A DNA stretch of 35,195 nt from positions 1 to 35,195 of the forward strand of contig JAFUMG010000042.1 in the NCBI GenBank assembly GCA_017473225.1. The letters run 5' to 3'. Source of the stretch: Oscillospiraceae bacterium (GTDB lineage: Bacteria > Bacillota > Clostridia > Oscillospirales > Oscillospiraceae). Below are positions 8,847 to 35,195 of the stretch, in pieces. The notes beneath the pieces were generated by a model. It had not been told where the DNA came from. It saw only the letters and a list, made by a program, of their open reading frames with translations, and ran no database searches. Position 1 is the stretch's first letter. Every line of letters begins with the position of its first letter. Position numbers and translations under genes: made by a program.

Positions 8847-8875
8847 TTGACATCCAAGGCTGGTTATATTATAAT
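8847..8875 (+). promoter_or_regulatory. Promoter of xdhABC
   Basis: Perfect consensus: TTGACA (8847-8852), 17-base spacer, TATAAT (8870-8875). Transcription should start near 8882, giving a leader of about 90 bases before xdhA. A promoter this strong suggests either high constitutive expression or control by a repressor. Confidence 0.88.
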
Positions 8876-8971
8876 TTTTGATAGATAACACCCCGTTTAT
8901 CACTACTGCGTTATCCCGTTCCAAGAACAAAGAAGTATTGTAATCAACCCGCCAGGAAGGAGATTATTCTC

Positions 8972-11269
8972 ATGCAAAAAAAGTACACCGGCAAAAGCGC
9001 GATCCGCGTGGATGCCTATGACAAGGCCACCGGCCGCGCCAAGTATGTCGAAGACATGCTTCCCGACGGTGCGCTGATCATGAAGATCGCCCATTCCAAG
9101 ATCACTCATGGTTATGTCAAGTCCATCGATACCTCCGCTGCTGAGGCTGTCCCCGGCGTCGTCAAGGTCCTGACCTGCTTCGACGTCCCCGACATCACTT
9201 TCCCCACCTCCGGCCACCCCTGGTCCACCGATCCCCATCACCAGGACGTCGCTGACCGCAAGCTGCTGAACCAGCATGTTCGCTACTACGGTGACGATAT
9301 CGCCATCGTTATCGCCGAGAACTCCGTCGCCGCCACCCAGGCTGTCCGCCTGATCAAGGCTGAGTACGAGGAGCTGCCCTTCGTCCTGGATCCCCAGGAG
9401 GCCATGAAGGACGGCGCTCCCCAGATCCACGAGGAGTACCCCAACAACATTCTGGCCCACACCAGCTCCAGCATCGGCAACTACGCCGAGGCCATCAAGG
9501 AGCCCGGCCTGATCAAGATCGAGGGCTGGTACCGCACCCCCACCGTGCAGCACTGCCACATCGAGAACCACGGCGTTTACGCCTACGAAGAGAACGGCCG
9601 TGTCGTAGTCGTCTCCTCTACCCAGATCCCCCACATCGTCCGCCGTATCTGCGGCCAGGCTACCGGTCTGCCCTGGGGCAATATCCGTGTCATCAAGCCC
9701 TACATCGGCGGCGGCTTCGGCAACAAGCAGGACGCTCTGTACGAGCCTCTGGTTACCTGGGCAACCACTCAGGTCGGCGGCCGTCTGGTCCACTTCGAGT
9801 GCGAGCGTGAGGAGACCTTCGTAAGTAACCGTGTCCGTCACTCCATCACCACCCACCTGATCTCCTGGGTCCGCGAGGACGGCACTCTGGTGGCCCGTAA
9901 GGGCGAACAGTTCGCCAACAGCGGCTCCTACGCTTCCCACGGCCACTCCATCGTCGCCAAGGGCGCAGGCTCCATTCCTCAGCTGTACCCCGTCCCCAAC
10001 TACGAGGGCGACGCTTACTCCATCTACACCAACCGTCCCACCGCCGGCGCAATGCGCGGCTACGGCATGCCTCAGACCACCTTCGCTGTGGAGTCCCACA
10101 CCGATGACATCTGCAAGCAGCTGAATCTGGATCCCATCGAGTACCGCCGCCGCACCCTGATGCCTCAGGGCTATGTGGACAACTTCTCCAAGAACGAGCA
10201 GTACTTCGATTCCTTCAACCAGTGCCTGGACGAGGCCATCAAGGTCATGGACTACGACCGCAAGTACGAGGAGTACAAGAACCAGACCGGCCCCATCCGC
10301 AAGGGTATCGGCGTTTCCGTGTTCTGGTACAACACCGCTGTCTGGCCCATCTCTCTGGAATCCTGCTCCGTCCGTATGATCGTCAATCAGGACGGCTCCA
10401 TCCAGTACCAGACCGGCGAGACCGAGATCGGCCAGGGCTGCGACACCGCTTACTCCCAGATGGTCGCTGACGCTGTCGGCGTGCCTCTGAAGGACGTCCA
10501 TGTGGTCTCCTGCCAGGATACCGACGTGACTCCCTACGGCACCGGCGCTTACGCTTCCCGTCAGACCTACATCGGCTCCCTGGGCATCGCCAAGTGCGCC
10601 ACCGAGCTGCGTAAGAAGATCCTGCAGATCGCTCACGATCAGACCCGTATGCCCATCGAGATCCTGGATCTGGTGGACGGCAAGATCATCCGCACCACCG
10701 ACGGCCGCGTCCTGGAGACCCTGGGCGACCTGGCCATGGAGAGCCTGTACTCCCTGGAGGACAGCCACCACATCACCGCTGAGACCACCTGCCAGATCAA
10801 GTCCAACGCCTACTCCTTCGGCTGCTGCATCGCCGAGGTCGAGGTGGACATCCCCCTGTGCAAGGCCAAGCTGACCAAGATCGTCAACGTCCATGACTGC
10901 GGCAGCCTGATCAATCCTCAGCTGGCTGAGGCCCAGGTCCACGGCGGTATGTCCATGGGCATCGGCTACGGCCTGAGCGAGCAGCTGCTCTTCGACGAGA
11001 AGACCGGTAAGCCTCTGAACAACAACCTGCTGGACTACAAGCTGTCCACCTTCATGGATCATCCCGAGCTGGAGGTCCGCTTCATCGAGAACGCCGAGCC
11101 CACCAACCCCTTCGGCACCAAGGCTCTGGGCGAACCCCCCGCATGCCCCGTCGCTTCCGCGATCCGCAACGCCATCCGGAACGCCACCGATGTTTCCATC
11201 AATGTCTGCCCCATCAACCCCCATGTCCTGTACAAGGAGTTCACTGAGGCTGGACTGATCGTAGATTAA
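8972..11269 (+). CDS. xdhA: Xanthine dehydrogenase, molybdenum-binding subunit
   Basis: A 765-residue catalytic subunit of a three-subunit molybdenum hydroxylase, oxidising hypoxanthine or xanthine (or reducing urate in reverse). Molybdopterin-contact motifs are GGGFGNKQD (about 246-254), AMRGYG (about 361), GTGAYASRQ (about 525) and the C-terminal LGEPPACPVA with the catalytic glutamate near 721. Length and subunit order match E. coli XdhA (about 750). GGAAGGAG precedes the ATG. It is first in an operon with xdhB and xdhC. It is codon-biased towards CGT/CGC arginine, unlike the CGG-rich genes at 2971-7635, suggesting high expression. Substrate is inferred from the family and from guaD downstream; other aromatic heterocycle oxidases look similar. 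Confidence 0.93.
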   Translation: MQKKYTGKSAIRVDAYDKATGRAKYVEDMLPDGALIMKIAHSKITHGYVKSIDTSAAEAVPGVVKVLTCFDVPDITFPTSGHPWSTDPHHQDVADRKLLNQHVRYYGDDIAIVIAENSVAATQAVRLIKAEYEELPFVLDPQEAMKDGAPQIHEEYPNNILAHTSSSIGNYAEAIKEPGLIKIEGWYRTPTVQHCHIENHGVYAYEENGRVVVVSSTQIPHIVRRICGQATGLPWGNIRVIKPYIGGGFGNKQDALYEPLVTWATTQVGGRLVHFECEREETFVSNRVRHSITTHLISWVREDGTLVARKGEQFANSGSYASHGHSIVAKGAGSIPQLYPVPNYEGDAYSIYTNRPTAGAMRGYGMPQTTFAVESHTDDICKQLNLDPIEYRRRTLMPQGYVDNFSKNEQYFDSFNQCLDEAIKVMDYDRKYEEYKNQTGPIRKGIGVSVFWYNTAVWPISLESCSVRMIVNQDGSIQYQTGETEIGQGCDTAYSQMVADAVGVPLKDVHVVSCQDTDVTPYGTGAYASRQTYIGSLGIAKCATELRKKILQIAHDQTRMPIEILDLVDGKIIRTTDGRVLETLGDLAMESLYSLEDSHHITAETTCQIKSNAYSFGCCIAEVEVDIPLCKAKLTKIVNVHDCGSLINPQLAEAQVHGGMSMGIGYGLSEQLLFDEKTGKPLNNNLLDYKLSTFMDHPELEVRFIENAEPTNPFGTKALGEPPACPVASAIRNAIRNATDVSINVCPINPHVLYKEFTEAGLIVD

Positions 11270-11283
11270 GGAGAATCATAATT

Positions 11284-12165
11284 ATGTATGATATTAATGT
11301 TCTGTACCAGGCCAAGACGGTCCAGGAAGCCGTCGAGCTGCATCTGGCACATCCCGAAGCTGACATTATCGCCGGCGGTACCGACGTTCTGGTTCAGATG
11401 CGCGAAGGCAAGCGCGCCGGCAAGTCCCTGCTGAGCATCCAGGGCATCGACGAGATCCGCGGCGTTAAGATGGAAGAGGACGGCACCATCCGTATCGGTT
11501 CCCTGACCACCTTCTCCCACATCACCAATGATCCCATCATTCAGAAGTACATCAACGTTCTGGGCGAGGCTGTCGACATGGTCGGCGGTCCCCAGATCCG
11601 TAACGCCGGCACCATCGGCGGCAACACCTGCAACGGCGCTGTCTCCGCTGACTCCACCGCTACCCTGCACGCCTGGGAAGCCATCGTGGAGCTGACCGGC
11701 CCCGACGGCATCCGCCGCCTGCCCATCAACGAGTTCTACATCAAGCCCGGCGTGGTCGACCTGCGTCCCGGCGAGATCCAGACCGGCATTCTGATCCCCA
11801 AGGAGAGCTACGAGAACACCTACGGCCACTACATCAAGTACGCCATGCGTGAGGCTCTGGACATCGCTACCCTGGGCACCTCCGTCAACGTTCGCCTGTC
11901 CGCCGACAAGAAGACTGTCGAGCGCGTCCGCATCGCCTTCGGCGTCGCCGGCCCCACCCCCCTGCGTGCTTACACCGCAGAGGCCATCGGCAACGGCAAG
12001 CCCCTGTCCATGGAGCTGATCGAAGAGGTCGCCAAGAATGTCGTGCCCGACCTGCGCTGCCGTGACTCCTGGCGTGCATCCAAGGCATTCCGTACCCATA
12101 TGGCTGTGGAGTGCACCAAGCGCGCGTTCATTGAATCCGTCAAGCTGTGTGGAGGTGAACTGTAA
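11284..12165 (+). CDS. xdhB: Xanthine dehydrogenase, FAD-binding subunit
   Basis: A 293-residue electron-transfer subunit of the CO-dehydrogenase flavoprotein type. FAD-binding motifs are IIAGGTDVLVQ (28-38) and GGNTCNGAVSADS (about 113-125). The SWRASKAFR segment near the C-terminus is shared with E. coli XdhB (292 residues). It passes electrons from the Fe-S subunit to NAD+ or another acceptor. AAGGAG lies 11 bases upstream. It starts 14 bases after xdhA and its TAA overlaps the xdhC ATG by one base, so translation is probably coupled and stoichiometric. Confidence 0.93.
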   Translation: MYDINVLYQAKTVQEAVELHLAHPEADIIAGGTDVLVQMREGKRAGKSLLSIQGIDEIRGVKMEEDGTIRIGSLTTFSHITNDPIIQKYINVLGEAVDMVGGPQIRNAGTIGGNTCNGAVSADSTATLHAWEAIVELTGPDGIRRLPINEFYIKPGVVDLRPGEIQTGILIPKESYENTYGHYIKYAMREALDIATLGTSVNVRLSADKKTVERVRIAFGVAGPTPLRAYTAEAIGNGKPLSMELIEEVAKNVVPDLRCRDSWRASKAFRTHMAVECTKRAFIESVKLCGGEL

Positions 12166-12686
12166 TGGAAAAGCATCAGATTCAGTATCAGACTGTTCAC
12201 TTCACCCTGAACGGCAAGGAAGTGGAGCAGACCGTGGATGTCCGCGCATCTCTGACCGATATGCTGCGTAACGATTTCCACATGCTGTCCGTCAAGAAGG
12301 GCTGCGAAGTCGGCGAGTGCGGCGCCTGCACCGTGCTGATCGACGACGAGGCCATCAACTCCTGCCTGTGGCTGGCTGTCTGGGCAGAGGGCAAGAACAT
12401 CCGTACCCTGGAGAGCCTGGTGGGCCCCAACGGCGAGCTGTCTGACGTTCAGCAGTGCTTCGTCGAGGAAGCCGCCATCCAGTGCGGTTTCTGCACCCCC
12501 GGCTTCATCATGACCGCTCAGGAGATCATCGAGACCGGCAAGGAGTACACCGACGATCAGCTGCGTAAGCTGCTGTCCGGCCACCTGTGCCGCTGCACCG
12601 GTTACGAGAACATCCTGCGTGCCGTCAAGAAGGCCATCAAGAAGGCCATGTACAAGAACCTGGCCAAGGAGCAGTCCGCCGAGTAA
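12165..12686 (+). CDS. xdhC: Xanthine dehydrogenase, 2x[2Fe-2S] subunit
   Basis: A 173-residue iron-sulfur subunit. The first cluster uses the plant-ferredoxin pattern C47, C52, C55 and C67 (GCEVGECGACTV). The second uses QCGFCTPG (about 107 and 110) and CRCTGY (about 142 and 144). It relays electrons from the molybdenum site in XdhA to FAD in XdhB. GGAGGTGAAC precedes the ATG inside the end of xdhB. A terminator follows 14 bases after the stop, closing the operon. Nomenclature follows E. coli xdhABC, not the unrelated XdhC chaperone of other bacteria; no such maturation chaperone is in the window. Confidence 0.94.
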   Translation: MEKHQIQYQTVHFTLNGKEVEQTVDVRASLTDMLRNDFHMLSVKKGCEVGECGACTVLIDDEAINSCLWLAVWAEGKNIRTLESLVGPNGELSDVQQCFVEEAAIQCGFCTPGFIMTAQEIIETGKEYTDDQLRKLLSGHLCRCTGYENILRAVKKAIKKAMYKNLAKEQSAE

Positions 12687-13003: not shown

Positions 13004-14269
13004 ATGAAAACGACCATTCTCCACGGCAACATCGTCTCCGCCCCCGAGCTGGGCAAGCTGGACATCACCGAAAACGGCTATCTGGTAGCCGAGGACGGCA
13101 TCATTGTGGGTGTCTATAAGACCCTTCCCGAAAAGTACGCCGGCTGTGAAGTGGAAGACTGCGGCGACAACCTGATCTTCCAGACCTTCTCCGACATGCA
13201 TCTGCACGCTCCTCAGTACGCGATGCTGGGCATGGGCATGGATATGCCCCTGATCGACTGGCTGAACACCTATACCTTCCCCACCGAGGCCCATTTCGCC
13301 GATACCGAGATGGCACGGAAGATCTATAAGCAGCTGGCCCACGAGCTGATCTCCAACGGCACCACCCGTGTCGTCATGTTCTCCTCCCTGCACCGTGAGT
13401 CCACTCTGATCCTGATGGAAGAGCTGGAGAAGGCCGGTGTCACCGGTTACGTCGGCAAGGTCAACATGGACCGCAACGGCGGCGAGAACTACCAGGAGAC
13501 CACCCTGGAGTCCATGGAAGAGACCATCAAGTGGCTGGAAGCCTGCAACTTCGAGCACATCAAGCCCATCATCACCCCCCGCTTCACCCCCACCTGCACC
13601 AATGAGCTGATGGAGTTCCTGGGCAAGCTGGCTACCGAGAAGAACCTGCCCATCCAGTCCCATCTGTCCGAGAACACCGGCGAGCTGGCATGGGTCAAGG
13701 AGCTGCATCCCGAGTGCGCCCAGTACTGGGAGACCTACTCCATGTACAACCTGTGGAACGACAAGACCGTCATGGCCCACTGCGTCTGGTCCGATGTCCG
13801 TGAGCGCAAGGCCATCAAGGACGCCGGCGTGTGGATCGCGCACTGCGGCGACTCCAACCTGAACCTGATCTCCGGCTATATGCCCATCCGTCAGATGCTG
13901 AACGAGGGCATGAAGGTCACTCTGGGCTCCGATATCGCCGGCGGCGACCGCATCTCCATGTTCGACGTCACCGCTTCCACCATCCGCGGCTCCAAGGCCC
14001 GCCGGATCATGGACAACTGGCAGACCGAGTTCCTGTCTGTTCCCGAAGGCTACTACCTGGCCACCTCCGCTGCCGCCGGTTTCTTCGATGAGAAGCCCGG
14101 CTTCGCCGCTGGCAACCCCCTGCACTGCATCGTGCTGAAGGACGACCAGCTGCCCGCAGTCCGCGAGCTGAGCGTTCAGGAGCGCTTCGAGCGCTGCATC
14201 TACCGCCGTCAGCCCGACGCCGTCCAGGCTGTCTGGTCCGCCGGCCGTAAGGTCTACACCGCTGAGTAA
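13004..14269 (+). CDS. guaD: Guanine deaminase
   Basis: This 421-residue zinc amidohydrolase deaminates guanine to xanthine plus ammonia. Metal ligands: HLH at 66-68 inside DMHLHAPQY, a guanine-deaminase hallmark, with SHLSEN, MAHCVW and GSDIAGG supplying later ligands. DMPLIDWLNTYTFP and TPRFTPTCTN are also typical of the family. AAAGGAG precedes the ATG. It stands alone between a long leader and a strong terminator, right after xdhABC, so its xanthine product is the substrate of the neighbouring dehydrogenase. Arginine codons are CGT/CGC-rich as in xdhABC, suggesting strong expression. One difference from many homologues is IAHCGDSNLNL in place of the usual NPxSN segment, but the active site otherwise looks complete. 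Confidence 0.93.
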   Translation: MKTTILHGNIVSAPELGKLDITENGYLVAEDGIIVGVYKTLPEKYAGCEVEDCGDNLIFQTFSDMHLHAPQYAMLGMGMDMPLIDWLNTYTFPTEAHFADTEMARKIYKQLAHELISNGTTRVVMFSSLHRESTLILMEELEKAGVTGYVGKVNMDRNGGENYQETTLESMEETIKWLEACNFEHIKPIITPRFTPTCTNELMEFLGKLATEKNLPIQSHLSENTGELAWVKELHPECAQYWETYSMYNLWNDKTVMAHCVWSDVRERKAIKDAGVWIAHCGDSNLNLISGYMPIRQMLNEGMKVTLGSDIAGGDRISMFDVTASTIRGSKARRIMDNWQTEFLSVPEGYYLATSAAAGFFDEKPGFAAGNPLHCIVLKDDQLPAVRELSVQERFERCIYRRQPDAVQAVWSAGRKVYTAE

Positions 14270-14564: not shown

Positions 14565-15758
14565 TCAGTTGGTGTAGTTGTCGAAATAGCCCTGGATCAG
14601 GATGATGGGGGTGCCCTTGTCGCCGGAGCCGGAGGTCAGGTCACACAGGGAGCCGATCAGATCGGTCAGGCGGCGGGGGGTGGTGCCCTGCGCTGCCATG
14701 TTGCCCACCAGGCTGCTGCCGTCCTTGGCGCGGATGGCGCCTTCGATAGCGGCCTTCAGCTCCGCGCCGCTGAGGTTCGCGAAGTCGTTGTCAGCCAGAT
14801 ACTTCAGCTTCAGCTCGTTGGGGGTGCCTTCCAGGCCGGGGGTGTAAGCGGGGGAGACCACGGGGTCCGCCAGCTCCCAGATCTTGCCCATGGGATCCTT
14901 GAAGGCGCCGTCGCCATAGACCATGACTTCCACATGCTTGCCGGTCTTCTCCAGCAGGCTTGCCTGGATGGATTCGACCAGGCCCTGGCAGTCTCTGGGG
15001 AACAGCTTGATGGTGTCCTCAGTGGACTTGTTGGAGCCCAGCAGGCCGTACTTTTCCTGATAGCCGCTGCCGTCGATGGACTCGTTCAGGATGTCGTCCA
15101 GGCCGCAGACCTTCTCGGCGCCGGCAGCCAGCAGCAGACGCTTGGTGCGGGCACGGGTATGAATGTCGCAGTTCAGGACGTTCTTGGTATAGGGCAGGAT
15201 GGCCCGGCAGTCGTTGGCGAAGATGACCTCCACCTCCGCGCCCATCTCCTTGATCAGGTCGGAGTAGTACTGAACATAGTCCACGCCGGTGAAGGGATGG
15301 GGGTTAGCGCCGAAGAGCTCACGGTACTTTTCCAGGCTCAGGACATCGGAGTAAGGATTGACCTTGGCTGCGTCCAGCTGATCGAAGGAGACCAGCTCAT
15401 TGCCCACCTCGTCGGAGGGATAGCTCAGCATCAGGACGATCTTCTTGGCGCCCTTGGCAATGCCGCGCAGGCAGATCGCGAAACGGTTACGGGACAGGAT
15501 GGGGAAAATGACACCGATGGTCTCGCCGCCCAGCTTGGCGCGGACGTCGGCAGCGATGGCGTCGACAGAGGCATAGTTGCCCTGGGCACGGGCCACAACG
15601 GACTCGGTCACGGCAACGACGTCACGGTCACGCAGGGCGAAGCCTTCGCTTTCCGCGGCTTCCAGAACACTGTCGACGACGATCTTGGCCAGGTCATCGC
15701 CCTCACGGATGATGGGGCAGCGAATGCCTCTGGAGACAGTTCCGACTTTTCTTTCCAT
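14565..15758 (-). CDS. CofE-like coenzyme F420-0:glutamate ligase family protein
   Basis: This 397-residue protein has the F420-ligase (CofE) fold signature: RCPIIREGDDLAKIV near the start, AVTESVVARAQGN (about 50-62), then FPILSRNRFAICLRGIAKGAKKIVLML. A second half contains YGDGAFKDPMGKIWELADPVVSPAY. Authentic CofE adds gamma-linked glutamates to the deazaflavin F420. Bacteria of this kind are not known to make F420, and the protein is longer than the typical archaeal CofE (about 250), so the real substrate is probably a different cofactor or metabolite. It has its own promoter and terminator and sits between guaD and the selenium block. GAGG precedes the ATG. Family call good, function open. 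Confidence 0.75.
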   Translation of the reverse strand: MERKVGTVSRGIRCPIIREGDDLAKIVVDSVLEAAESEGFALRDRDVVAVTESVVARAQGNYASVDAIAADVRAKLGGETIGVIFPILSRNRFAICLRGIAKGAKKIVLMLSYPSDEVGNELVSFDQLDAAKVNPYSDVLSLEKYRELFGANPHPFTGVDYVQYYSDLIKEMGAEVEVIFANDCRAILPYTKNVLNCDIHTRARTKRLLLAAGAEKVCGLDDILNESIDGSGYQEKYGLLGSNKSTEDTIKLFPRDCQGLVESIQASLLEKTGKHVEVMVYGDGAFKDPMGKIWELADPVVSPAYTPGLEGTPNELKLKYLADNDFANLSGAELKAAIEGAIRAKDGSSLVGNMAAQGTTPRRLTDLIGSLCDLTSGSGDKGTPIILIQGYFDNYTN

Positions 15759-19515: not shown

Positions 19516-19716
19516 ATGCTGGACGCAAGAGGACTTTCCTGCCCCGAACCCGTTGTCATGATCCGCAAGGCCATGGCTTCCAAGGCAAATGAATACACCA
19601 TGGTGGTCGATAACGTGACCTCCAAGGAAAATGTCACCCGCTATGCCGAGCATCAGGGCTACACCGTCACGGTGAGCGAGAACGGCGGCGAGTACACCCT
19701 GACTATTAAGAAATAA
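19516..19716 (+). CDS. TusA-like sulfur/selenium carrier (YedF N-domain type)
   Basis: This 66-residue protein has the TusA fold signature LDARGLSCPEPVVMIRKAM. The cysteine in CPEP (residue 9) is the carrier thiol. Full-length YedF has a second DsrE-like domain of about 120 residues; here only the TusA domain is encoded and no DsrE domain follows. AAAGGAG precedes the ATG, 18 bases after yedE. It probably accepts a persulfide or perselenide from the desulfurase-like enzyme at 17067 or hands on what YedE imports. That ordering is inference. Confidence 0.85.
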   Translation: MLDARGLSCPEPVVMIRKAMASKANEYTMVVDNVTSKENVTRYAEHQGYTVTVSENGGEYTLTIKK

Positions 19717-24411: not shown

Positions 24412-24448
24412 AATAGACAGGGACCCCTTTCTGGATTTCTCTGGGTCC

Positions 24449-24476
24449 ATTATATCAGGTAAATTGAAAATTTCAA
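24449..24476 (-). promoter_or_regulatory. Promoter of the YheO/DauR-like gene with overlapping palindrome
   Basis: On the minus strand TTGAAA (24471-24476), 16 bases, TATAAT (24449-24454). The -35 lies inside the palindrome TTGAAA-A-TTTCAA (24464-24476), a plausible autoregulatory operator. Confidence 0.7.
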
Positions 24477-24518: not shown

Positions 24519-24612
24519 CAAAGTTGCAGGCTGAAACGCAGTGCTACGCGCACGGGCCCGGCTTTAAAATAAGAAAAACTTATATCATATTCATCCAAAG
24601 GAGGCAAACATC

Positions 24613-25956: not shown

Positions 25957-25975
25957 TTTCATAAATCCTTTGCGG

Positions 25976-25998
25976 CCGGGCTCCCCACCGGAGCCCGG
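25976..25998 (+). promoter_or_regulatory. Intercistronic stem-loop between ssnA and ygfK
   Basis: Perfect 9-bp stem CCGGGCTCC/GGAGCCCGG with a 5-base loop and no T-run. Likely an mRNA processing or stability element that adjusts ssnA relative to ygfK. Confidence 0.5.
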
Positions 25999-26035
25999 TC
26001 TCCCGAAATCACATAAACATTGGAGGAAAACAATC

Positions 26036-29026
26036 ATGGCAGATATTATGCGCCCCATTCCCTTTGGCCAGCTGATGACTTGGATCCTGACCGAAAACAA
26101 GGAGCATGGCAGCATCTTCGGTGTTGCTAAGCAGGTCCATCACACCACCGGCAAGGCTCTGCCCATCTTCGACGAGAAGATCGAGACCCCCTACGGCCCC
26201 GCCGCAGGTCCCAACTCCCAGCTGGCACAGAACATCGTCGCCGCTTACGCAGCAGGCTCCCGCTTCTTCGAGCTGAAGACTGTTCAGCAGATGGATGGCG
26301 AAGAGCTGAGCGAATGCGTCAACAAGCCCTGCATCACCGCGGGCGACGAGTGCTACAACTGCGAGTGGTCCACCGAGCTGTACGTCACCGAAGCATACGT
26401 CGAATACGTCAAGGCATGGTGGGCATGTAAGCTGATGGCCAAGGAACTGGGCATGGGCGATCCCGATGGCTTTGTCTTCAACATGTCCGTTGGCTACAAC
26501 CTGGCTGACATCAAGAAGAACAAGACCAACTCCTACATTGATCAGATGATGGACGCTTCCCGCACCGAGATCTGGAACTCCTGCAAGAACTGGACTCTGA
26601 ATAATCTGGATATGTTCGAGAACGTCGATGCTGACTACGTCAACAACATCTCCGCTCGTATCTCCAACTCCATCACCGAGTCTACCCTGCATGGCTGCCC
26701 CCCCAGCGAGATTGAAGCCATCGCTCGCTACCTGATCACCGAGAAGCACCTGAACACCTACATCAAGTGCAACCCCACTCTGCTGGGCTATGAGTACGCC
26801 CGCGCCCGCATGGACTCCCTGGGCTTCGACTACGTTGCCTTCACCGACAGCCACTTCCTGACCGACCTGCAGTGGTGCGACGCCGTTCCCATGTTCGAGC
26901 GTCTGATCGCCCTGTGCGAGCAGGAAGGCGTGGAGTTCGGCCTGAAGCTGACCAACACCTTCCCCGTCGACGTGGAAGCCGGCGAGCTGCCCTCCAACGA
27001 GATGTACATGTCCGGCCGCTCCCTGTACCCCCTGTCCATCTCCCTGGCCCGCCGTATCACCGACCAGTTCAACGGCAAGCTGCGCATCTCCTACTCCGGC
27101 GGTGCGGAAGCCCGGAACATCAAGGCCCTGTTCGATGCCGGCATCTGGCCCATCACCATGGCTACCACCATCCTGAAGCCCGGCGGATACGAGCGTATGA
27201 CCCAGATCTACAACGAGCTGGGTGACTGCGGCGACCAGCGCTGGAGCGGCCTGAACGTGGAAGCTGTCCGCGCTCTGGACGACGGCGTTGCCACCGACGA
27301 GCTGTACCACAAGCCCATCAAGCCCCTGCCCGTCCGCCACATCGGCAAGCAGGTCCCCCTGGTCGACTGCTTCAACGCTCCCTGCCGCAACGGCTGCCCC
27401 ATTGAGCAGGATATCCCCGCTTACCTGACCGCCGTCGGCGAGGGCCGCATGGCTGACGCTCTGAACATCATCCTGGAGCGCAACGCACTGCCTTTCATCA
27501 CCGGCACCATCTGCCCCCATCACTGCGGCGACAAGTGCATGCGCAACTACTATGACGACCATGTCAAGATCCGCGAGGCCAAGCTGACCGCCGCCAACGG
27601 CGCTTACGAGGAAGTCATCGCTTCCCTGAAGCCCGCCGCTCCCGTGGCTGGCAAGAAGGTCGCCGTCATCGGTGGCGGCCCCGCCGGTCTGGCTGCCGCT
27701 TCCTTCCTGTCCCGCGCCGGCATCGACGTCACCGTCTATGAGCGCACCGACAAGCTGGGCGGCATCGTCCGTCACGTGATCCCCGAGTTCCGTATCTCCA
27801 CCCAGGCCATCGACAACGACGTGGCTCTGTGCAAGGCATACGGCGCCAAGTTCGAGCTGAACACCGAGGTCACCTCCGTTTCCGACCTGCTGGCTCAGGG
27901 CTACACCGACGTCATCGTCGCTGTGGGCGCCTGGAAGGCCGGTGCTTCCGGTGTTGAGTACGGCGAGACTCTGAACGTCATCAAGTTCCTGTACGCCGCC
28001 AAGAACGCTCCCGAGACCCTGAACCTGGGCAATGACGTCGTCGTCATCGGCGGCGGCAACACCGCCATGGACGCTGCCCGCGTGGCAAAGCGCCTGGGTG
28101 CTGCCAATGTCCGTCTGATCTACCGCCGCACCAAGCGCTACATGCCCGCCGACGAGGAAGAGCTGGCTGAGGCCATCGAAGACGGCGTCGAGTTCATGGA
28201 GCTGCTGGCACCCATCGGTGTCAAGGACGGCGTCCTGACCTGCGAGGTCATGAAGCTGGGCGCTCCCGACGCTTCCGGCCGCCGCGGCGTTGAGGCCACC
28301 GGCGAGAAGGTCGAGGTCCCCGCTTCCATCGTCATCACCGCCATCGGTGAGAAGGTCGAGACCGGCCTGTACGAGGGCATCGGCGTTGAGCTGACCAAGA
28401 AGGGCACTCCCGTCGTGGACGAGAACATGCAGACCTCTGTCGCTCACGTTTACGCTGTCGGCGACGGCCGCCGCGGCCCCGCCACCATCGTTGAGGGCAT
28501 CGCTGACGCCGCCAAGGCTACCACCGCCATCGCCGGCTACGACTTCGGCAAGTACACCGAGGCCAACATCGAGCCCGATTACCAGAAGGTCCTGGACAAG
28601 AAGGGCAAGCTGTGCACCGACTGCTCCAGCTGCGAGAGCTCCGGCTGCCTGGGCTGCGCCACCGTCTGCGAGACCTGCGCTTCTGTCTGCCCCAACCGCG
28701 CAAACGTCGCCATCGCTGTTCCCGGCATGCGTCAGCGCCAGATCGTCCATGTGGACGGCATGTGCAACGAGTGCGGCAACTGCCTGATCTTCTGCCCCTA
28801 CGATTCCCGCCCCTACAAGGACAAGTGGACCCTGTTCTGGACCGAGTGGGACTTCGAGAACTCCACCAACGCCGGCTGGCTTGAGCTGGGCGACGGCAAG
28901 GTCAAGGTCCGTCTGGGCGACTCCGTCAAGGAGTACGTCGTGGCCGACACCAACTGCGGCCTGTACGAGCCCCTGCGTCAGGTCATCCTGGCTGTCGAGA
29001 AGGACTACGCCTACCTGCTGAAGTAA
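26036..29026 (+). CDS. ygfK: YgfK-type iron-sulfur flavoprotein (annotated as putative selenate reductase subunit)
   Basis: A 996-residue multidomain oxidoreductase, near E. coli YgfK (about 1030). Residues 1-420 form a dihydroorotate-dehydrogenase/dihydropyrimidine-dehydrogenase-like half (TPYGPAAGPNSQLAQNIVAA; STLHGCPPSEIEAI). About 447-500 is a GltD-like cysteine cluster (CRNGCP, CPHHCGDKC). A flavin domain starts at GGGPAG (about 545), with a pyridine-nucleotide motif IGGGNTAMD (about 671) and VGDGRRG (about 808). The C-terminus has ferredoxin-type clusters (CTDCSSCESSGC; CNECGNCLIFC). The architecture resembles dihydropyrimidine dehydrogenase rearranged, which suits reduction of a purine-derived ring. 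The selenate label is historical. The ATG at 26036 has TTGGAGG; the longer frame does not. Confidence 0.93.
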   Translation: MADIMRPIPFGQLMTWILTENKEHGSIFGVAKQVHHTTGKALPIFDEKIETPYGPAAGPNSQLAQNIVAAYAAGSRFFELKTVQQMDGEELSECVNKPCITAGDECYNCEWSTELYVTEAYVEYVKAWWACKLMAKELGMGDPDGFVFNMSVGYNLADIKKNKTNSYIDQMMDASRTEIWNSCKNWTLNNLDMFENVDADYVNNISARISNSITESTLHGCPPSEIEAIARYLITEKHLNTYIKCNPTLLGYEYARARMDSLGFDYVAFTDSHFLTDLQWCDAVPMFERLIALCEQEGVEFGLKLTNTFPVDVEAGELPSNEMYMSGRSLYPLSISLARRITDQFNGKLRISYSGGAEARNIKALFDAGIWPITMATTILKPGGYERMTQIYNELGDCGDQRWSGLNVEAVRALDDGVATDELYHKPIKPLPVRHIGKQVPLVDCFNAPCRNGCPIEQDIPAYLTAVGEGRMADALNIILERNALPFITGTICPHHCGDKCMRNYYDDHVKIREAKLTAANGAYEEVIASLKPAAPVAGKKVAVIGGGPAGLAAASFLSRAGIDVTVYERTDKLGGIVRHVIPEFRISTQAIDNDVALCKAYGAKFELNTEVTSVSDLLAQGYTDVIVAVGAWKAGASGVEYGETLNVIKFLYAAKNAPETLNLGNDVVVIGGGNTAMDAARVAKRLGAANVRLIYRRTKRYMPADEEELAEAIEDGVEFMELLAPIGVKDGVLTCEVMKLGAPDASGRRGVEATGEKVEVPASIVITAIGEKVETGLYEGIGVELTKKGTPVVDENMQTSVAHVYAVGDGRRGPATIVEGIADAAKATTAIAGYDFGKYTEANIEPDYQKVLDKKGKLCTDCSSCESSGCLGCATVCETCASVCPNRANVAIAVPGMRQRQIVHVDGMCNECGNCLIFCPYDSRPYKDKWTLFWTEWDFENSTNAGWLELGDGKVKVRLGDSVKEYVVADTNCGLYEPLRQVILAVEKDYAYLLK

Positions 29027-29097: not shown

Positions 29098-31674
29098 ATG
29101 AGTACCTTTACCGTAAACGGCGTCCAGCGTACTACCAATGAAAAGAAATCTCTTCTGCGTTATCTGCGTGATGACCTGCATCTGACCTCCATCAAGGACG
29201 GCTGCAGCCAGGGCGCCTGCGGCGCCTGCACCGTCATCATCGACGGTGTGACCTGCAAGTCCTGCGTTCCCACCACCGACCGTCTGGACGGCAAGACCAT
29301 CGTCACCGTCGAGGGCCTGAGCGACTGGGAAAAGGAGCTGTACACCTATGCCTACGGCGAAGCCGGCGCTGTTCAGTGCGGCTTCTGTATCCCCGGCATG
29401 GTCATGTGCACCAAGGCCCTGCTGGATCAGAACCCCAACCCCACCGAGGATGAGATCAAGTACGCTCTGCGCAACAACTATTGCCGCTGCACCGGCTATG
29501 TCAAGATCATCGCCGCCGTGAAGCTGGCAGCCAAGATCAAGGCCGCCGGCGCCATCCCCGAGGCCTCCACCACCGACTGGCACGTGGGCAACCGCGTCCA
29601 CCGTCTGGACGTGGCTGAGAAGGTCCTGGGCTATGGCCAGTACCCCGATGACATCTACCCCGAAGACACCACCTATGCCGGCGCCCTGCGCAGCAAGTAC
29701 GCCCGCGCCCGTGTTCTCTCCATCGACACCTCCAAGGCCAAGGCCCTGCCCGGTGTCGTCGCCGTCCTGACCGCCGAGGACATTCCCGGTGAGAACATGA
29801 TCGGCCACCTGAAGCATGACCAGTACACTCTGGTCCCCGTGGGCGAGCTGACCCACTACCTGGGCGACGCCGTCGCTCTGGTCGTCGCCGAGAGCATGGC
29901 GATCGTTGAGAAGGCCAAGAAGCTGATCAAGGTCGAATATGAGGTTCTGCCCGCTGTCCACAGCATCGAGGAAGCCAAGGCTCCCGGCGCTCCCCTGGTC
30001 TTTGAGACCGACAAGTCCAATGTCCAGGCCCACGAGCACATCTCCCGCGGCAATGCCCGGGAAGCCATCGCCAACGCTCCCCATGTGATCACCCATCACT
30101 TTGAGACTCCCTGGACCGAGCACGCCTTCCTGGAGCCCGAAGCCTGCGCCGCGTATCTGGATGAGGACGGCGACGTCTTCATCTACTCCACCGACCAGTC
30201 TGCCCACCAGACCCTCCATGAGTGCCAGCTGCTGCTGGGCACCAAGAAGGTCAAGGTCCAGAACGCCCTGGTCGGCGGCGGCTTCGGCGGCAAGGAGGAC
30301 ATGACCGTCCAGCATCTGGCCGCTCTGGCTGTCTACCATACCCACCGCCCCGTCAAGATGAATCTGACCCGCGCCGAGTCCCTGCTGGTCCATCCCAAGC
30401 GTCACCACTTCGTCATGGACTTCACCATGGGCTGCGACAACGACGGTAAGATCCTGGGCGTCCGGGCCGTCTGCGAATCCGACACCGGCGCTTACGCCTC
30501 CCTGGGCGGCCCCGTCCTGCAGCGTGCCTGTACTCACGCCGCCGGTCCCTACGCCTACGAGAACTTCGAGATCGAGGGCACCGCTTACTACACCAACAAT
30601 CCTCCTGCGGGCGCGTTCCGTGGCTTCGGCGTCACCCAGACCTGCTTCGCCACCGAATCCCTGCTGAACATGATGGCCGAGAAGATCGGCATCTCTCCCT
30701 GGGAGATCCGCTACCGCAACGCCATCCGTCCCTGGGGCGTCCTGCCCAACGGCCAGATCGTCGACGATTCCACCGGCCTGGTGGAGACTCTGGAGGCTGT
30801 CAAGCCCTACTATGACGAGGCTGTGGCCGCCGGCAAGCCCGTTGGCATCGGCTGCGCCATGAAGAACGCCGGCGTCGGCGTCGGCATCCCCGATACCGGC
30901 CGCGTGAAGCTGCTGATCGAGAAGGACCAGAAGGTCCACATCTACTCCGGCGCTTCCTGCATCGGCCAGGGCCTGGGCACCGTCCTGGTCCAGAACGTGG
31001 TCGAGTACACCGGCCTGAACCGTGACGACATCGTCTACGAGCGCTCCAACACCTGGTACGCCCCCGACTCTGGCACCACCTCCGGCTCCCGCCAGACTCT
31101 GGTCACCGGCGAGGCCTGCATCCGGGCCTGCCGCCTGCTGAAGGAAGCTCTGGATTCCGGCAAGACTCTGGCTGATCTGGTCGGTCAGGAGTTCTACGGC
31201 GAGTATCTGGCCAAGACCGATCCTCTGGGCGCCAATGTGCCCAACCCCGTCTCTCACGTTGCCTACGGCTATGCCACCCAGGTCTGCATCCTGAACAAGA
31301 AGACCGGCAAGGTCGAGCAGATGATCGCTGCCCATGACGTGGGCAAGGCCGTCAACCCCCTGTCCTGCGAAGGCCAGATCGAAGGCGGCGTGGTCATGAG
31401 CATGGGCTATGCCCTGCGTGAGGACTATCCCATCGACGAGAACTGCAAGCCCCTGGAGAAGTACGGCTCCCTGGGCCTGTTCCGCGCACACGAAATTCCC
31501 GAGATCAAGGCAATCGTTGTCGACAAGCCCGGCCTGAACGTAGCGGGCGGTGCCATCGGTATCGGTGAGATCACCTCGATCCCCACCGCTCCCGCCATCA
31601 CCGAAGCCTACTACCAGTGGGACGGCCAGCGCCGCTACAGCCTGCCCATCTCCGGCACACCTTATAAGAAGTAA
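29098..31674 (+). CDS. xdhD: Selenium-dependent-type xanthine dehydrogenase, fused Fe-S and Mo domains
   Basis: An 858-residue protein fusing a 2x[2Fe-2S] domain (C36, C41, C44, C56; then QCGFCIPG and YCRCTGY, residues 1-150) to a molybdopterin domain with GGGFGGKED (about 393), GAFRGFG (about 505), SGTTSGSRQT (about 658) and GIGEITSIP with the catalytic glutamate near 824. There is no FAD domain, unlike the xdhABC enzyme. The length and fusion fit the XdhD/Se_dep_XDH type, thought to carry a labile selenium on the molybdenum instead of sulfur; no selenocysteine codon is used. AAGAAAGGA precedes the ATG. It lies between ygfK and an RnfB-like ferredoxin that could act as electron partner. It probably acts on purines; direction and exact substrate are open. 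Confidence 0.92.
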   Translation: MSTFTVNGVQRTTNEKKSLLRYLRDDLHLTSIKDGCSQGACGACTVIIDGVTCKSCVPTTDRLDGKTIVTVEGLSDWEKELYTYAYGEAGAVQCGFCIPGMVMCTKALLDQNPNPTEDEIKYALRNNYCRCTGYVKIIAAVKLAAKIKAAGAIPEASTTDWHVGNRVHRLDVAEKVLGYGQYPDDIYPEDTTYAGALRSKYARARVLSIDTSKAKALPGVVAVLTAEDIPGENMIGHLKHDQYTLVPVGELTHYLGDAVALVVAESMAIVEKAKKLIKVEYEVLPAVHSIEEAKAPGAPLVFETDKSNVQAHEHISRGNAREAIANAPHVITHHFETPWTEHAFLEPEACAAYLDEDGDVFIYSTDQSAHQTLHECQLLLGTKKVKVQNALVGGGFGGKEDMTVQHLAALAVYHTHRPVKMNLTRAESLLVHPKRHHFVMDFTMGCDNDGKILGVRAVCESDTGAYASLGGPVLQRACTHAAGPYAYENFEIEGTAYYTNNPPAGAFRGFGVTQTCFATESLLNMMAEKIGISPWEIRYRNAIRPWGVLPNGQIVDDSTGLVETLEAVKPYYDEAVAAGKPVGIGCAMKNAGVGVGIPDTGRVKLLIEKDQKVHIYSGASCIGQGLGTVLVQNVVEYTGLNRDDIVYERSNTWYAPDSGTTSGSRQTLVTGEACIRACRLLKEALDSGKTLADLVGQEFYGEYLAKTDPLGANVPNPVSHVAYGYATQVCILNKKTGKVEQMIAAHDVGKAVNPLSCEGQIEGGVVMSMGYALREDYPIDENCKPLEKYGSLGLFRAHEIPEIKAIVVDKPGLNVAGGAIGIGEITSIPTAPAITEAYYQWDGQRRYSLPISGTPYKK

Positions 31675-31691: not shown

Positions 31692-32186
31692 ATGGCTGTT
31701 AAGAAGAAGTTCCCCTACAAGGCCGCGGTCGTGGCCTGCAACGGCGGCTGCCGGGCCAGCAAGACCCCCGACGCCAAGTGCGTTTACGGCTGCATCGGCT
31801 GTGAGCAGTGCGTCATCGCCTGCAAGTTCGGCGCCATCCACATCAATGACCTGGGCGTCGCCGAGGTGGATGAGGAAAAGTGCATCGCCTGCGGCAAGTG
31901 CGCCACCTACTGCCCCCAGAACCTGATCCACATCCACGAGTGCGCCAACTACATCGTGGTCAAGTGCTCCAACCACGACAAGGGCAAGGACGCCCGTGCC
32001 GTGTGTGAAGTCAGCTGCATCGGCTGCGGCATGTGCGAGAAGGTCTGCACCGCCGGCGCCATCCACGTTGTGAACAACGTGGCCGTCATCGACGACAGCA
32101 AGTGCCTCAGCTGCGGCATGTGCGCTGTCAACTGCCCCCGCGGCGCCATCATCGACACCCGCGGTGTCCTGACCGGCAAGTATTGA
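31692..32186 (+). CDS. RnfB-like polyferredoxin
   Basis: A 164-residue protein with four cysteine-rich ferredoxin-like segments: CVYGCIGCEQCVIAC (about 31-45), CIACGKCATYC (about 64-74), CEVSCIGCGMCEKVC (about 106-120) and CLSCGMCAVNC (about 138-148). It also has VACNGGC near residue 15. The layout closely follows the cytosolic half of RnfB, but the membrane helix and the RnfB N-terminal cluster are missing. GGGGGA precedes the ATG, 18 bases after the xdhD-like stop, so it is in the same operon. The upstream XDH has no FAD subunit, so this protein is a likely electron carrier between that enzyme and YgfK, a hydrogenase or an Rnf complex. That role is inference. Confidence 0.85.
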   Translation: MAVKKKFPYKAAVVACNGGCRASKTPDAKCVYGCIGCEQCVIACKFGAIHINDLGVAEVDEEKCIACGKCATYCPQNLIHIHECANYIVVKCSNHDKGKDARAVCEVSCIGCGMCEKVCTAGAIHVVNNVAVIDDSKCLSCGMCAVNCPRGAIIDTRGVLTGKY

Positions 32187-32581: not shown

Positions 32582-33796
32582 ATGGAACCCAAAATGAAAT
32601 GGAAACTGAACACCATGCCTAAGGGCGATGGCAACGAGCTGGAGATCATGTCCCTGGATAACGTCGCCAAGGCACGTGCTTTCCACGAGAGCTTCCCCCA
32701 GTACAGCATCACTCCTCTGGCCAAGCTGGACAAGATGGCTGACTACCTGGGCCTGGACACCCTGTGCATCAAGGACGAGAGCTACCGCTTCGGCCTGAAC
32801 GCATTCAAGGTCCTGGGCGGCTCCTTCGCTATGGCCAAGTACATCGCCAAGGAACTGGGCAAGGACGTTTCCGAGATGACTTATGACTATCTGACCAGCG
32901 CCGCTCTGAAGGAAGAGTTCGGCCAGGCTACCTTCTGCACCGCTACCGACGGCAACCACGGCCGCGGCGTGGCATGGGCTGCCAACAAGCTGGGCCAGAA
33001 GGCTATCGTCCACATGCCCAAGGGCTCTTCCAAGACCCGTTTCGATAACATCGCCAAGGAGAACGCCAAGGTCACCATCGAGGAAGTGAACTACGACGAG
33101 TGCGTCCGTATCGCTGCCGCCGAGGCCGCTTCCGTTGAGCACGGTGTCATCGTTCAGGATACCGCCTGGGAAGGCTACACCGAGATCCCCAGCTGGATCA
33201 TGCAGGGCTACGCCACCATGGGCTCCGAAGCTCTGGAGCAGCTGAAGGGCTACGGCGTTGAGCGCCCCGACGTTGTCATCCTGCAGGCCGGTGTCGGCTG
33301 CATGGCCGGTGCTATCTGCGCCTACATCGTCAACTCCTTCCCCGACAATCCCCCCAAGATCGTCATCGCCGAGGCCGGCATCGCCGACTGCCTGTACCAG
33401 GGCGCTGTCGCCAACGACGGCAAGTACCGCATCGTTGACGGCGATCTGCAGACCATCATGGCTGGCCTGGCTTGCGGCGAGCCCAACATCGTCTGCTGGG
33501 AGATCCTGCGCAACCACGTCACCGCTTTCTGCTCCTGCCCCGACTGGATGGCAGCTAAGGGCATGAGAATGCTGGCAGCTCCCGTCAAGGGCGACCCCGC
33601 TGTCTGCTCCGGCGAGTCCGGCGCTATCGGCATGGGCGTCATCGCTTCCCTGATGACCGATCCCGACTACGCAGAGCTGAAGGAAGCTCTGGGCCTGAAC
33701 AAGGACTCCAAGGTCCTGCTGTTCTCCACCGAAGGCGACACCGATCCCGACAAGTACAAGAGCATCGTCTGGGGCGGCGAGTACGCTACCGTGTAA
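32582..33796 (+). CDS. dpaL: Diaminopropionate ammonia-lyase (YgeX)
   Basis: A 404-residue PLP enzyme (E. coli YgeX 398) that splits 2,3-diaminopropionate into pyruvate and two ammonia. The PLP lysine is K76 in RFGLNAFKVLGG. The phosphate-binding loop region includes ATDGNHGRGVAWAA (about 119-132) and the C-terminal glycine-rich SGESGAIGMG. TAGGAGG precedes the ATG. In urate-degrading gut anaerobes this gene belongs to the yge/ygf set and provides the carbon exit to pyruvate and energy. Its promoter is separate from the ssnA operon, and ygeY follows 52 bases downstream with its own strong ribosome site. Codon use is that of a highly expressed gene. Confidence 0.96.
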   Translation: MEPKMKWKLNTMPKGDGNELEIMSLDNVAKARAFHESFPQYSITPLAKLDKMADYLGLDTLCIKDESYRFGLNAFKVLGGSFAMAKYIAKELGKDVSEMTYDYLTSAALKEEFGQATFCTATDGNHGRGVAWAANKLGQKAIVHMPKGSSKTRFDNIAKENAKVTIEEVNYDECVRIAAAEAASVEHGVIVQDTAWEGYTEIPSWIMQGYATMGSEALEQLKGYGVERPDVVILQAGVGCMAGAICAYIVNSFPDNPPKIVIAEAGIADCLYQGAVANDGKYRIVDGDLQTIMAGLACGEPNIVCWEILRNHVTAFCSCPDWMAAKGMRMLAAPVKGDPAVCSGESGAIGMGVIASLMTDPDYAELKEALGLNKDSKVLLFSTEGDTDPDKYKSIVWGGEYATV

Positions 33797-33848
33797 ACCC
33801 TAGCAAGGTCTATTTACATAATCAATAATTTCAAGGAGGAAACTACCA

Positions 33849-35195
33849 ATGGTTAATGCAAATCTGGACTACGCTCAGATCAAGGCTGCCGCTGAAGGCT
33901 ACAAGGCTGACATGGCTGCTTTCCTGCGTGCAATGATCTCCCACCCCAGCGAAAGCTGCGAAGAGGGCGCGGTCTGCGAGTGTATCAAGGCTGAGATGGA
34001 AAAGCTGGGCTACGACGAAGTTGAGTTCGACGGCCTGGGCAACGTCATCGGCTGGATGGGCACCGGCGACAAGATCATCGCTATTGACTCCCACATCGAT
34101 ACCGTCGGTATCGGCAACATCAACAACTGGACCCATGACCCCTACCAGGGCTACGAAGACGACGAGGTCATCTACGGCCGCGGCGGCTCCGACCAGGAGG
34201 GCGGCATGGCTTCCGCTACCTATGGCGCTAAGATCATGAAGGACCTGGGTCTGATTCCCGAGGGCTACAAGATCATGGTCATCGGCTCTGTTCAGGAAGA
34301 GGACTGCGACGGCATGTGCTGGCAGTACGTCGTGAACAAGCACTTCCCCAAGAAGGGCATCAAGAAGGAGCAGGTCGAGTTCGTTATCTCCACCGAGCCC
34401 ACTGACGGCGGCATCTACCGTGGTCATCGCGGCCGTATGGAGATCCGCGTTGATGTCAAGGGCGTTTCCTGCCATGGCTCCGCTCCCGACCGCGGCGACA
34501 ACGCGATCTACAAGATGGCTGACATCCTGCAGGACGTCCGTGCTCTGAACGAGAACGACGCTGCTGACGAGACCGAGATCAAGGGTCTGGTCAAGATGCT
34601 GGATCCCAAGTACAACCCCGATCACTACGAGGATGCACGTTTCCTGGGCCGCGGCACCTGCACCACTTCCCAGATCTACTTCACCTCTCCTTCCCGCTGC
34701 GCTGTTGCTGACTCCTGCTCCATCTCCATCGACCGTCGTATGACCGCCGGTGAGACCTGGGATTCCTGCCTGCAGGAGATCCGCGATCTGCCCAACGTCA
34801 AGAAGTATGGCGACGACGTCAAGGTTTCCATGTACATGTACGATCGTCCCTCCTGGACCGGCGAAGTCTACGAGACCGAGTGCTACTTCCCCACTTGGAT
34901 CAACAAGAAGGAGTCCGCTCACGTCAAGGCTCTGGAGGACGCACATCTGGCACTGTTCGGCGACACCCGTACCTGCCCCAACTCCGAGATCGCCAAGGCT
35001 AAGCGCGAGGGCCGTCCCCTGACCGACAAGTGGACCTTCTCCACCAACGGTGTCGCTATCCAGGGCCGCTACGGCATCCCCTGCGTTGGCTTCGGCCCCG
35101 GTGCTGAGTCTCAGGCTCACGCTCCCAACGAGATCACCTGGAAGTCCGACCTGGTTACCTGCGCAGCTCTGTACGTTGCCGCTGTCAACCTGTAC
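33849..35195 (+). CDS. ygeY: YgeY-type M20 metallohydrolase (3' end outside window)
   Basis: An M20-family zinc hydrolase, open for 449 codons to the window edge with no stop. Metal-site motifs: IDSHIDTVG (H82, D84), [18 protein letters not shown] (general base and ligand), STEPTD, and a late SQAHAPNE histidine. The central [24 protein letters not shown] dimerisation-domain entry is typical; only part is quoted. Family members cleave amide bonds of carbamoylated or acylated amino acids. In this cluster YgeY probably releases the diaminopropionate that DpaL consumes, which fits the gene order. It is already longer than E. coli YgeY (about 403), reflecting extra segments in the second half. AAGGAGG precedes the ATG. 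Confidence 0.93.

Follow-up and report, generated by a model that had tools for sequence, protein, structure and literature searches.

A 35,195-nucleotide contig of an uncultured gut bacterium of the Oscillospiraceae (GenBank assembly GCA_017473225.1, contig JAFUMG010000042.1; hereafter the window, meaning the whole stretch of DNA that was analysed) carries purine and urate genes interleaved with genes of selenium metabolism and, together with a second contig of the same genome bin, makes up a nearly complete island. The reading favored here, with a probability of roughly 0.65, is that this island degrades urate reductively with its own selenium supply, that a selenium-type xanthine dehydrogenase lacking a flavin adenine dinucleotide (FAD) domain (Se-XDH) reduces urate, and that a small ferredoxin encoded beside it is the electron donor in place of the FAD subunit YgfM. 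Se-XDH and the ferredoxin recur as a pair across many loci, and at six others a ferredoxin domain is fused to Se-XDH; proposed here are the activity of Se-XDH as a urate reductase, its partnership with the ferredoxin, and the flow of electrons from the ferredoxin to Se-XDH. Within its genome bin, which comprises 97 contigs and is 78.6% complete, the window is designated contig C44. Gene families were called by NCBIfam and Pfam profile scans, and bit scores are set against the curated cut-off of each model.

Se-XDH and its ferredoxin

The proposed urate reductase (29098..31674, + strand; TIGR03311, 1187.1 bits, cut-off 830.5) is a fused protein with a 2x[2Fe-2S] domain and a molybdenum cofactor domain but no FAD domain. 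All eight cluster cysteines (36/41/44/56 and 94/97/129/131) are kept. The closest solved relatives are the aldehyde oxidoreductases 1dgj and 1sij, Desulfovibrio enzymes that likewise lack FAD. The neighbors of the gene are ygfK and the ferredoxin gene, with no gene for a YgfM FAD subunit alongside. The ferredoxin (31692..32186, + strand; Fer4 domains, RnfB-like), a 164-residue protein proposed to be the electron carrier of Se-XDH, contains four CxxCxxCxxxC motifs, and in an alignment of 50 rows each of their 16 cysteines is kept in 49 or all 50. It is related to the ferredoxin domains of RnfB (PDB 7zc6_B and 9eri_B) and aligns to residues 113-263 of 7zc6_B. A full-length RnfB with an N-terminal membrane anchor, encoded in an rnf operon, was considered and ruled out from the length of 164 residues and the site between Se-XDH and dpaL. 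Elsewhere in the bin, two RnfB matches of equal score lie on separate contigs (C3:21331-21714 and C8:12138-12521) and are perhaps a strain duplicate.

The pairing was surveyed at the best 80 of 109 Se-XDH loci, taken from named genomes. The gene for this ferredoxin is adjacent at 49 of these and a ferredoxin domain is fused at 6, while the contig ends too early at 6 and neither arrangement is found at 19, one of which (L145) holds a copy elsewhere in its genome. Adjacent genes, whose hosts include Schaedlerella arabinosiphila, Coprococcus catus, and Blautia, begin at -39 to +49 nucleotides (nt) downstream of Se-XDH in 47 of the 49 cases, with one at +356 and one just upstream. With the six early contig ends excluded, the ferredoxin is adjacent or fused at 52 of the 53 loci whose Se-XDH shares 69% identity or more with that of the window, as compared to 3 of 21 other loci. 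On a 113-row tree of Se-XDH, built by a quick method that left 33 of 110 inner branches open, ferredoxin presence (scored by the label 'none') takes 3 changes (shuffled mean 36.8, 0 of 500 shuffles as low) and fusion takes 4 changes (3 of 500 shuffles as low, mean 5.9). Across 48 loci, the flanking genes differ but the pair itself is kept, and ygfK was not seen in the fetched stretch at 12 of the 49 loci with an adjacent ferredoxin; of these 12, only 4 were fetched with flanks of nearly 10 kb at either end.

In the fusions (L154, L129 at 5898-8894, L111, L122, L123 at 4266-7202, and L131), the ferredoxin domain stands at the C-terminus of Se-XDH. That of L154 has four clusters, is RnfB-like by NCBIfam, and is in frame with an Se-XDH whose N-terminus is cut by the contig; that of L129 has four motifs and is another type of ferredoxin (32% over 116 residues); and those of L111, L122, L123, and L131 have two motifs each. 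A search at E 1e-15 found no separate copy of the small ferredoxin in the six fusion genomes. No small ferredoxin was found in 39 relatives outside the window's own genome: 31 of them have matches at 38-51% identity, but these lie in longer frames (204-429 residues) that were taken as RnfB, and none of these genomes has an Se-XDH over cut-off. The ferredoxin is a trait of one part of the Se-XDH tree and not of all of it. It makes a good candidate for the protein that supplies the urate reductase with electrons under physiological conditions.

A nearly complete gene set for a proposed urate pathway across two contigs

The genes that flank the pair are assigned to further steps of the proposed pathway. 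Upstream are ssnA (24613..25956, + strand; TIGR03314, 538.6 bits, cut-off 455.5), for an aminohydrolase predicted to open dihydro-yanthine, and ygfK (25970..29026, + strand; TIGR03315, 1300.7 bits, cut-off 835.3), for a putative flavin/iron-sulfur (Fe-S) yanthine reductase that is 44.6% identical to Escherichia coli YgfK and probably starts ~70 bases downstream of the called start. Downstream are dpaL/ygeX (32582..33796, + strand; TIGR03528, 609.3 bits, cut-off 532.3), for a diaminopropionate ammonia-lyase, and ygeY (33849..35195, + strand; TIGR03526, 584.1 bits, cut-off 321.5), for an M20 hydrolase truncated by the contig end. Intergenic gaps measure 13 bases (ssnA-ygfK), 71 bases (ygfK-Se-XDH), 17 bases (Se-XDH-ferredoxin), and 395 bases (ferredoxin-dpaL). 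The gap before dpaL contains a promoter-like site (32479-32506), which is weak evidence, with 4 such sites in the region versus 3.0 in shuffles. Nearer the start of the window are xdhA (8972..11269, + strand; NF043082, 1173.8 bits, cut-off 780; 44.5% identical to E. coli XdhA), xdhB (11284..12165, + strand; NF043083, 411.7 bits, cut-off 310), and xdhC (12165..12686, + strand; NF043084, 249.8 bits, cut-off 217), for the molybdenum-binding, FAD, and 2x[2Fe-2S] subunits of an FAD-type xanthine dehydrogenase, followed by a guaD-like guanine deaminase gene (13004..14269, + strand) for which TIGR02967 is the top family at 305.4 bits, below the equivalog cut-off of 375.4, and which is 31% identical to E. 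coli GuaD. Judged from their families, guaD and xdhABC can provide entry from guanine and xanthine. An earlier interpretation of the window from its letters alone (the sequence-only reading) had listed these genes together with those for selenium supply; they are confirmed by families that score far above cut-off in frame and by an ssnA-to-ygeY order that is kept in three congeners. The less secure calls are guaD, which falls below its equivalog cut-off, and one of the two small carriers, which is TusA-like, with only the N-terminal domain of YedF.

The final 141 bases of C44 are identical to one end of contig C9 of the same bin, which carries onward ygeW (793 bits, cut-off 500), a carbamate kinase gene, hyuA (D-hydantoinase/dihydropyrimidinase; 486 bits, cut-off 393), a second selenium-type LysR gene, DegV, a MarR-like gene, yqeB (TIGR03309, 352.8 bits, cut-off 220), a MogA/MoaB-like gene, yqeC (TIGR03172, 197.8 bits, cut-off 73), and a pyr operon. 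The reductive uricolytic gene set (YgfK or UacX, SsnA, HyuA, YgeW or UacY, YgeY, and YgeX together) is consequently present over C44 and C9. The sequence-only reading had noted that several members of the E. coli cluster were missing from the window, had suggested reading on beyond ygeY, and had supposed that they lay just past this gene or were replaced by others. Reading on did meet ygeW, hyuA, yqeB, and yqeC on C9, but E. coli MocA (ygfJ), like XanQ and UacT, has no tblastn match (E 0.01) on C44 or C9, and the sole match to E. coli YgfM on these contigs is a weak one within xdhB (tblastn, E 6.5e-4). As to replacement, the gene for a D-aminoacylase-type amidohydrolase (COG3653) and possible UacY (21775..23418, - strand; PF07969; closest solved relatives D-aminoacylases; true start probably ~55 bases inside) does not replace ygeW, because YgeW is encoded on C9; it is an additional gene, and the UacY-like hydrolase co-occurs with YgeW and carbamate kinase in the window's lineage (the window and 3 congeners). 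The RnfB-like protein, the other replacement that was put forward, may stand in for the FAD subunit YgfM as the point of electron entry, a sense that had not been spelled out.

In the proposed pathway, GuaD would convert guanine to xanthine, XdhABC (with FAD) would oxidize xanthine to urate, and the FAD-less Se-XDH would reduce urate to 2,8-dioxopurine. The ring would then be dearomatized and opened by YgfK and SsnA; release of the ureido groups would fall to HyuA, to YgeW with carbamate kinase, and to YgeY; and DpaL would yield pyruvate and ammonia. SelD, YqeB, YqeC, the small carriers, YedE, and the desulfurase would supply and insert labile selenium, and the ferredoxin would pass low-potential electrons to the [2Fe-2S] domain of Se-XDH, replacing the E. 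coli FAD subunit YgfM. The step chemistry is that described in other species by Li et al. (2025; PMC12507026), and the proteins described here are homologues by family from YgfK on. In that report, the steps were set with E. coli and Clostridioides difficile enzymes: XdhD reduces urate to 2,8-dioxopurine, YgfK carries out reductive dearomatization, SsnA and HyuA open the rings, YgeW or UacY and then YgeY cleave the ureido groups, and YgeX converts diaminopropionate to pyruvate.

Alternative explanations

Several observations weigh against urate reduction by Se-XDH with the ferredoxin as donor, or against the completeness of the island. E. coli XdhD, a proven urate reductase (PMC12507026), scores 310 bits (29.5%) with the window's XdhA but only 220 bits (26.6%) with its Se-XDH, so that the assignment of Se-XDH rests on operon context; C. 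difficile XdhD was likewise assigned by proximity, at 25.6% identity (PMC12507026). Glu606 of E. coli XdhD lies within an insertion that is missing from the window's Se-XDH, from 112 other Se-XDH rows, and from XdhA. This residue is present in 3 of 7 XdhD-like rows of the alignment and, being absent from every aligned Se-XDH row, was set aside as an uninformative marker of urate reduction. In a phylum sample of 398 genomes, 39 of which (the window's own included) have an Se-XDH over cut-off, 40 loci were fetched (from 38 of those 39 genomes, plus two weaker matches); an adjacent same-strand open reading frame with a 4Fe-4S motif occurs at 0 of the 37 loci that are over the score threshold. Together with the 19 of 80 nearer loci that lack the ferredoxin, this means that those Se-XDH enzymes must use another donor. 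Moreover, an Oscillibacter sp. and a sister genome (L174 9671-10351 and L175 1508-2032, both - strand) encode ferredoxins that are 54-57% identical to that of the window, in stretches of 20 and 9 kb that contain no Se-XDH and in which the neighbors were read as pyruvate:ferredoxin oxidoreductase (PFOR) and CoA-transferase genes. The ferredoxin family is therefore not exclusive to Se-XDH; the PFOR-like operon suggests a low-potential carrier. A fusion, for its part, cannot tell an electron donor from an electron acceptor. Lastly, the sole PF00860 purine-permease match in the genome lies on contig C88 and none lies within the cluster; the gene content bears out the earlier view of one purine-degrading, selenium-supplied unit, but to call that unit self-contained was too strong. 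As a separate observation on the E. coli enzyme, XdhD (L006 23317-26187) has no cysteine among its first 170 residues, so that its ferredoxin-like domain should hold no [2Fe-2S] clusters.

Three other explanations were considered. Se-XDH could act oxidatively, as a second xanthine dehydrogenase with the ferredoxin as its acceptor, leaving urate reduction to XdhABC or another molybdenum hydroxylase. TIGR03311 is indeed named for xanthine dehydrogenase activity, EF2570 is cited as a selenium-dependent xanthine dehydrogenase (Johnstone and Self, in PMC11448449), the greater likeness of E. coli XdhD to XdhA and the missing Glu606 point in the same direction, and the genome has a further molybdenum hydroxylase (C41:12784-15456, - strand), which scores below the Se-XDH cut-off. 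Yet the Se-XDH gene sits in a run with ssnA, ygfK, dpaL, and ygeY, all of which act after urate, whereas XdhABC adjoins guaD and scores as a xanthine dehydrogenase equivalog, and the oxidative role is considered unlikely. A service of the ferredoxin to YgfK, to a maturation step, or to general metabolism, with its position beside Se-XDH incidental, would fit the cysteine-rich, Fe-S-like motifs of YgfK and the relatives encoded away from Se-XDH in two genomes; it is hard to reconcile with ferredoxin domains fused naturally to Se-XDH at six loci, by four changes on the tree, with a pair that is retained while its flanks change, and with the 12 of 49 ferredoxin loci at which ygfK was not seen (4 with nearly full flanks), and it is given only a low probability. 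The chance that C44 and C9 are not adjacent, and that the island is smaller than described, is very slight: an overlap in an assembly graph can be a branch point, and the bin has 97 contigs, but ygeY-ygeW-arcC-hyuA runs unbroken on single contigs in the congeners L085, L109, and L130, and tetranucleotide correlations between C9 and four parts of the window are 0.90-0.94.

Selenium supply

The window's genes for selenium supply lie between the two catabolic stretches. They include selD (20252..21292, + strand; TIGR00476, 391.8 bits, cut-off 125; Cys form, start estimated), a gene of the YedE selenium transporter family (18379..19497, + strand; TIGR04112, 496.1 bits, cut-off 200), and genes for two small carriers, one a DUF3343 selenium/sulfur carrier (19729..19974, + strand; PF11823, 54.6 bits, cut-off 25) and the other the TusA-like protein of 65 residues (19516..19713, + strand), which matches TIGR03527 over residues 2-63 at 58.9 bits, under the cut-off of 110. 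An EF2568-type cysteine desulfurase or possible selenocysteine lyase (17067..18224, - strand) scores 444 bits with TIGR01977 (cut-off 377) and 429.5 bits with the SclA model, under its cut-off of 525, and a LysR regulator of selenium metabolism (15958..16866, - strand; NF040786, 302.5 bits, cut-off 250) is encoded next to it. With selD in the window and yqeB (TIGR03309) and yqeC (TIGR03172) on C9, the three genes that mark selenium-dependent molybdenum hydroxylases are all present. In the 78.6% complete genome there is no SelB over cut-off and no MnmH match, while SelA was not searched for; the SelB and MnmH result is in line with selenium serving molybdenum hydroxylases alone. In C. difficile, growth on urate is impaired without selD or yqeB (PMC11448449), and a proposal of YedE, YedF, DUF3343, and a selenium LysR dates from 2015 (PMC5322559). 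The selD gene is flanked by two palindromic elements of ~180 bases (20015-20199 and 21380-21565) that are 75-82% alike, and letters resembling this element also precede ssnA in congener L085.

Leader RNA and candidate regulators of ssnA

Four features of the window lie beyond those listed in the sequence-only reading: the selenium-type LysR, a CofE-like protein described further below, a regulator divergent from ssnA, and an element resembling the ssnA RNA of Rfam. A permissive Rfam scan of the 261-base ssnA leader gave RF03031, a cis-regulatory element, as its sole match (24522..24567, + strand; 30.6 bits, under the gathering score of 37.3; E 1.4e-6; model positions 1-48 of 48). This copy lies ~45 nt before ssnA and has both paired stems. 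In the 398 genomes, searched for RF03031 with strict filters, matches were found in 4 at E 0.001 and in 1 at the gathering score, the window's own genome having a single listed match (E 2.2e-6, threshold E 0.001); when four loci were scanned with the gathering score as threshold, the copies in L107 and L109 passed. A five-copy model searched in 122 sources recovered 12 significant copies, the five included, each of them upstream of ssnA and in the sense orientation. They lie 18-112 nt before the gene in 10 of 10 measured cases, and the copy in L051 likewise precedes ssnA. At the 80 loci, the element is missing from most of the 49 ssnA genes. In 11 distinct rows, 91 of 91 pair cells are standard in an alignment that was fitted to the model. 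Covariation is not above that of shuffles, as the one pair changed on both sides was matched by 57 of 500 shuffles, and the window's leader has no excess folding stability relative to shuffles (z -0.29). No known riboswitch scores above its gathering score in the window or C9.

It is hypothesized that the ssnA RNA is a riboswitch for urate or yanthine. The NMT1 xanthine/urate riboswitch demonstrates that RNA can bind such ligands, and the text of that source drawn on here does not contain the word ssnA (PMC7373994). No ligand for the ssnA RNA is named in the open-access literature searched, and on that scope the RNA is an orphan. A more specific and tentative proposal, to which slightly less than an even chance is given, is that the dedicated four-cluster ferredoxin is the donor of the urate reductase and could be recharged by pyruvate from the pathway via PFOR, and that the ssnA RNA would be a riboswitch for urate or 2,8-dioxopurine.

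The divergent gene encodes a PAS_6/HTH_22 regulator (23764..24450, - strand; PF08348, PF13309). Such a gene is the nearest listed gene upstream of ssnA, and divergent from it, at 12 of 49 fetched ssnA genes, and the protein is a candidate urate regulator. A palindrome, ACAAA-N3/4-TTTGT, was noted before ssnA (24613) and dpaL (32582) in the window and some congeners; counts are 3 of 49 regions upstream of ssnA (mean of shuffles 0.19) and 2 of 31 upstream of dpaL (0.21), and every occurrence is in the window or a congener.

Genomic setting of the window

The trait is patchy within the genus, with an Se-XDH over cut-off in 4 of 136 genomes, the window's own counted. The three nearest carriers of the island are gut genomes labeled Oscillospiraceae or Clostridiales. 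Contamination of the bin was considered and is disfavored by apgM of the window contig, which has matches of 62-77% identity in 11 of 24 congeners and of 44-64% in 10 of 15 other genomes, with the reservation that a match is lacking in 13 of 24 congeners and that, at 64%, a genome from a different family ranks above two congeners. The stretches carrying xdhABC-guaD (8900-14300) and ssnA-ygeY (24600-35195) correlate in tetranucleotide make-up at only 0.81-0.84 with the other two parts of the window and at 0.93-0.96 with the locus of congener L085; this odd make-up of the two catabolic stretches may reflect codon bias or transfer. The CofE-like F420_ligase protein (14565..15758, - strand; profile scan) is full-length at 397 amino acids, and no relative turned up in the stretches that were fetched around the 80 Se-XDH loci. 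Near the start of the window, CotH/LTD, VTC, and DUF4956 proteins are encoded consecutively (2551-7635, + strand).

Relation to known systems and implications

The mixture of purine and selenium genes, and the reductive urate pathway, are known in kind from a 2008 report on Enterococcus (Haft and Self, PMC2276186) and from work in 2025 (PMC12507026). In Enterococcus faecalis, the region EF_2563-EF_2582 shares with the island selD, yqeB, yqeC, a SirA-like gene, the EF_2568 lyase, the Se-XDH EF_2570, ygeWXY, hyuA, yqeA, ygfK, and ssnA. It differs in that a separate xdhABC and a guaD are missing from the rows of Table 1 drawn on here, and the word ferredoxin occurs nowhere in the text; those rows do not cover EF_2571, 2572, 2574, and 2576, so a ferredoxin gene may lie among these (PMC2276186). 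The yge/ygf region of E. coli K-12 shares xdhABC, guaD, ygeWXY, hyuA, yqeA, yqeB, yqeC, ygfK, and ssnA. There, XdhD acts with reduced nicotinamide adenine dinucleotide and with a protein that copurifies with it and was taken to be the FAD subunit YgfM (PMC12507026), whereas the window has an Se-XDH with eight cluster cysteines, a ferredoxin, and no adjoining YgfM, and neither C44 nor C9 yielded mocA, xanQ, or uacT. The C. difficile cluster shares an XdhD without an FAD subunit and a D-aminoacylase-type UacY, and selenium-dependent urate use is a feature of that organism (PMC12507026, PMC11448449). In C. difficile, UacY replaces YgeW/YqeA and UacX replaces YgfK; the window's lineage, in contrast, has YgfK, YgeW with carbamate kinase, and a UacY-like gene, although YgeW and UacY have been described as alternatives (Li et al., 2025, PMC12507026). 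The ferredoxin domains resemble those of RnfB, and the window protein differs from it in lacking the N-terminal part and in occurring alone or as a domain of Se-XDH. The leader element corresponds to Rfam RF03031 in its full 48-position match, its paired stems, and its place just upstream of ssnA, with a score under gathering in the window.

A ferredoxin has already been suggested as the donor of C. difficile XdhD, with no gene named in the portion drawn on (Li et al., 2025, PMC12507026), and a 2025 commentary describes the physiological electron donor of XdhAC as still undiscovered (PMC12990295). No ferredoxin gene for a urate reductase is named in the open-access literature searched; within that literature, the specific ferredoxin, its clade-wide pairing with Se-XDH, the fusions, and the UacY-like gene together with YgeW are new. 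Bacterial urate breakdown affects the human urate load, and the loci described here name a testable candidate donor gene and provide natural fusions of ferredoxin domains to Se-XDH. Further, since the substrate of the enzyme encoded beside the ssnA RNA has been established, the choice of ligands to try on this RNA narrows to a few.

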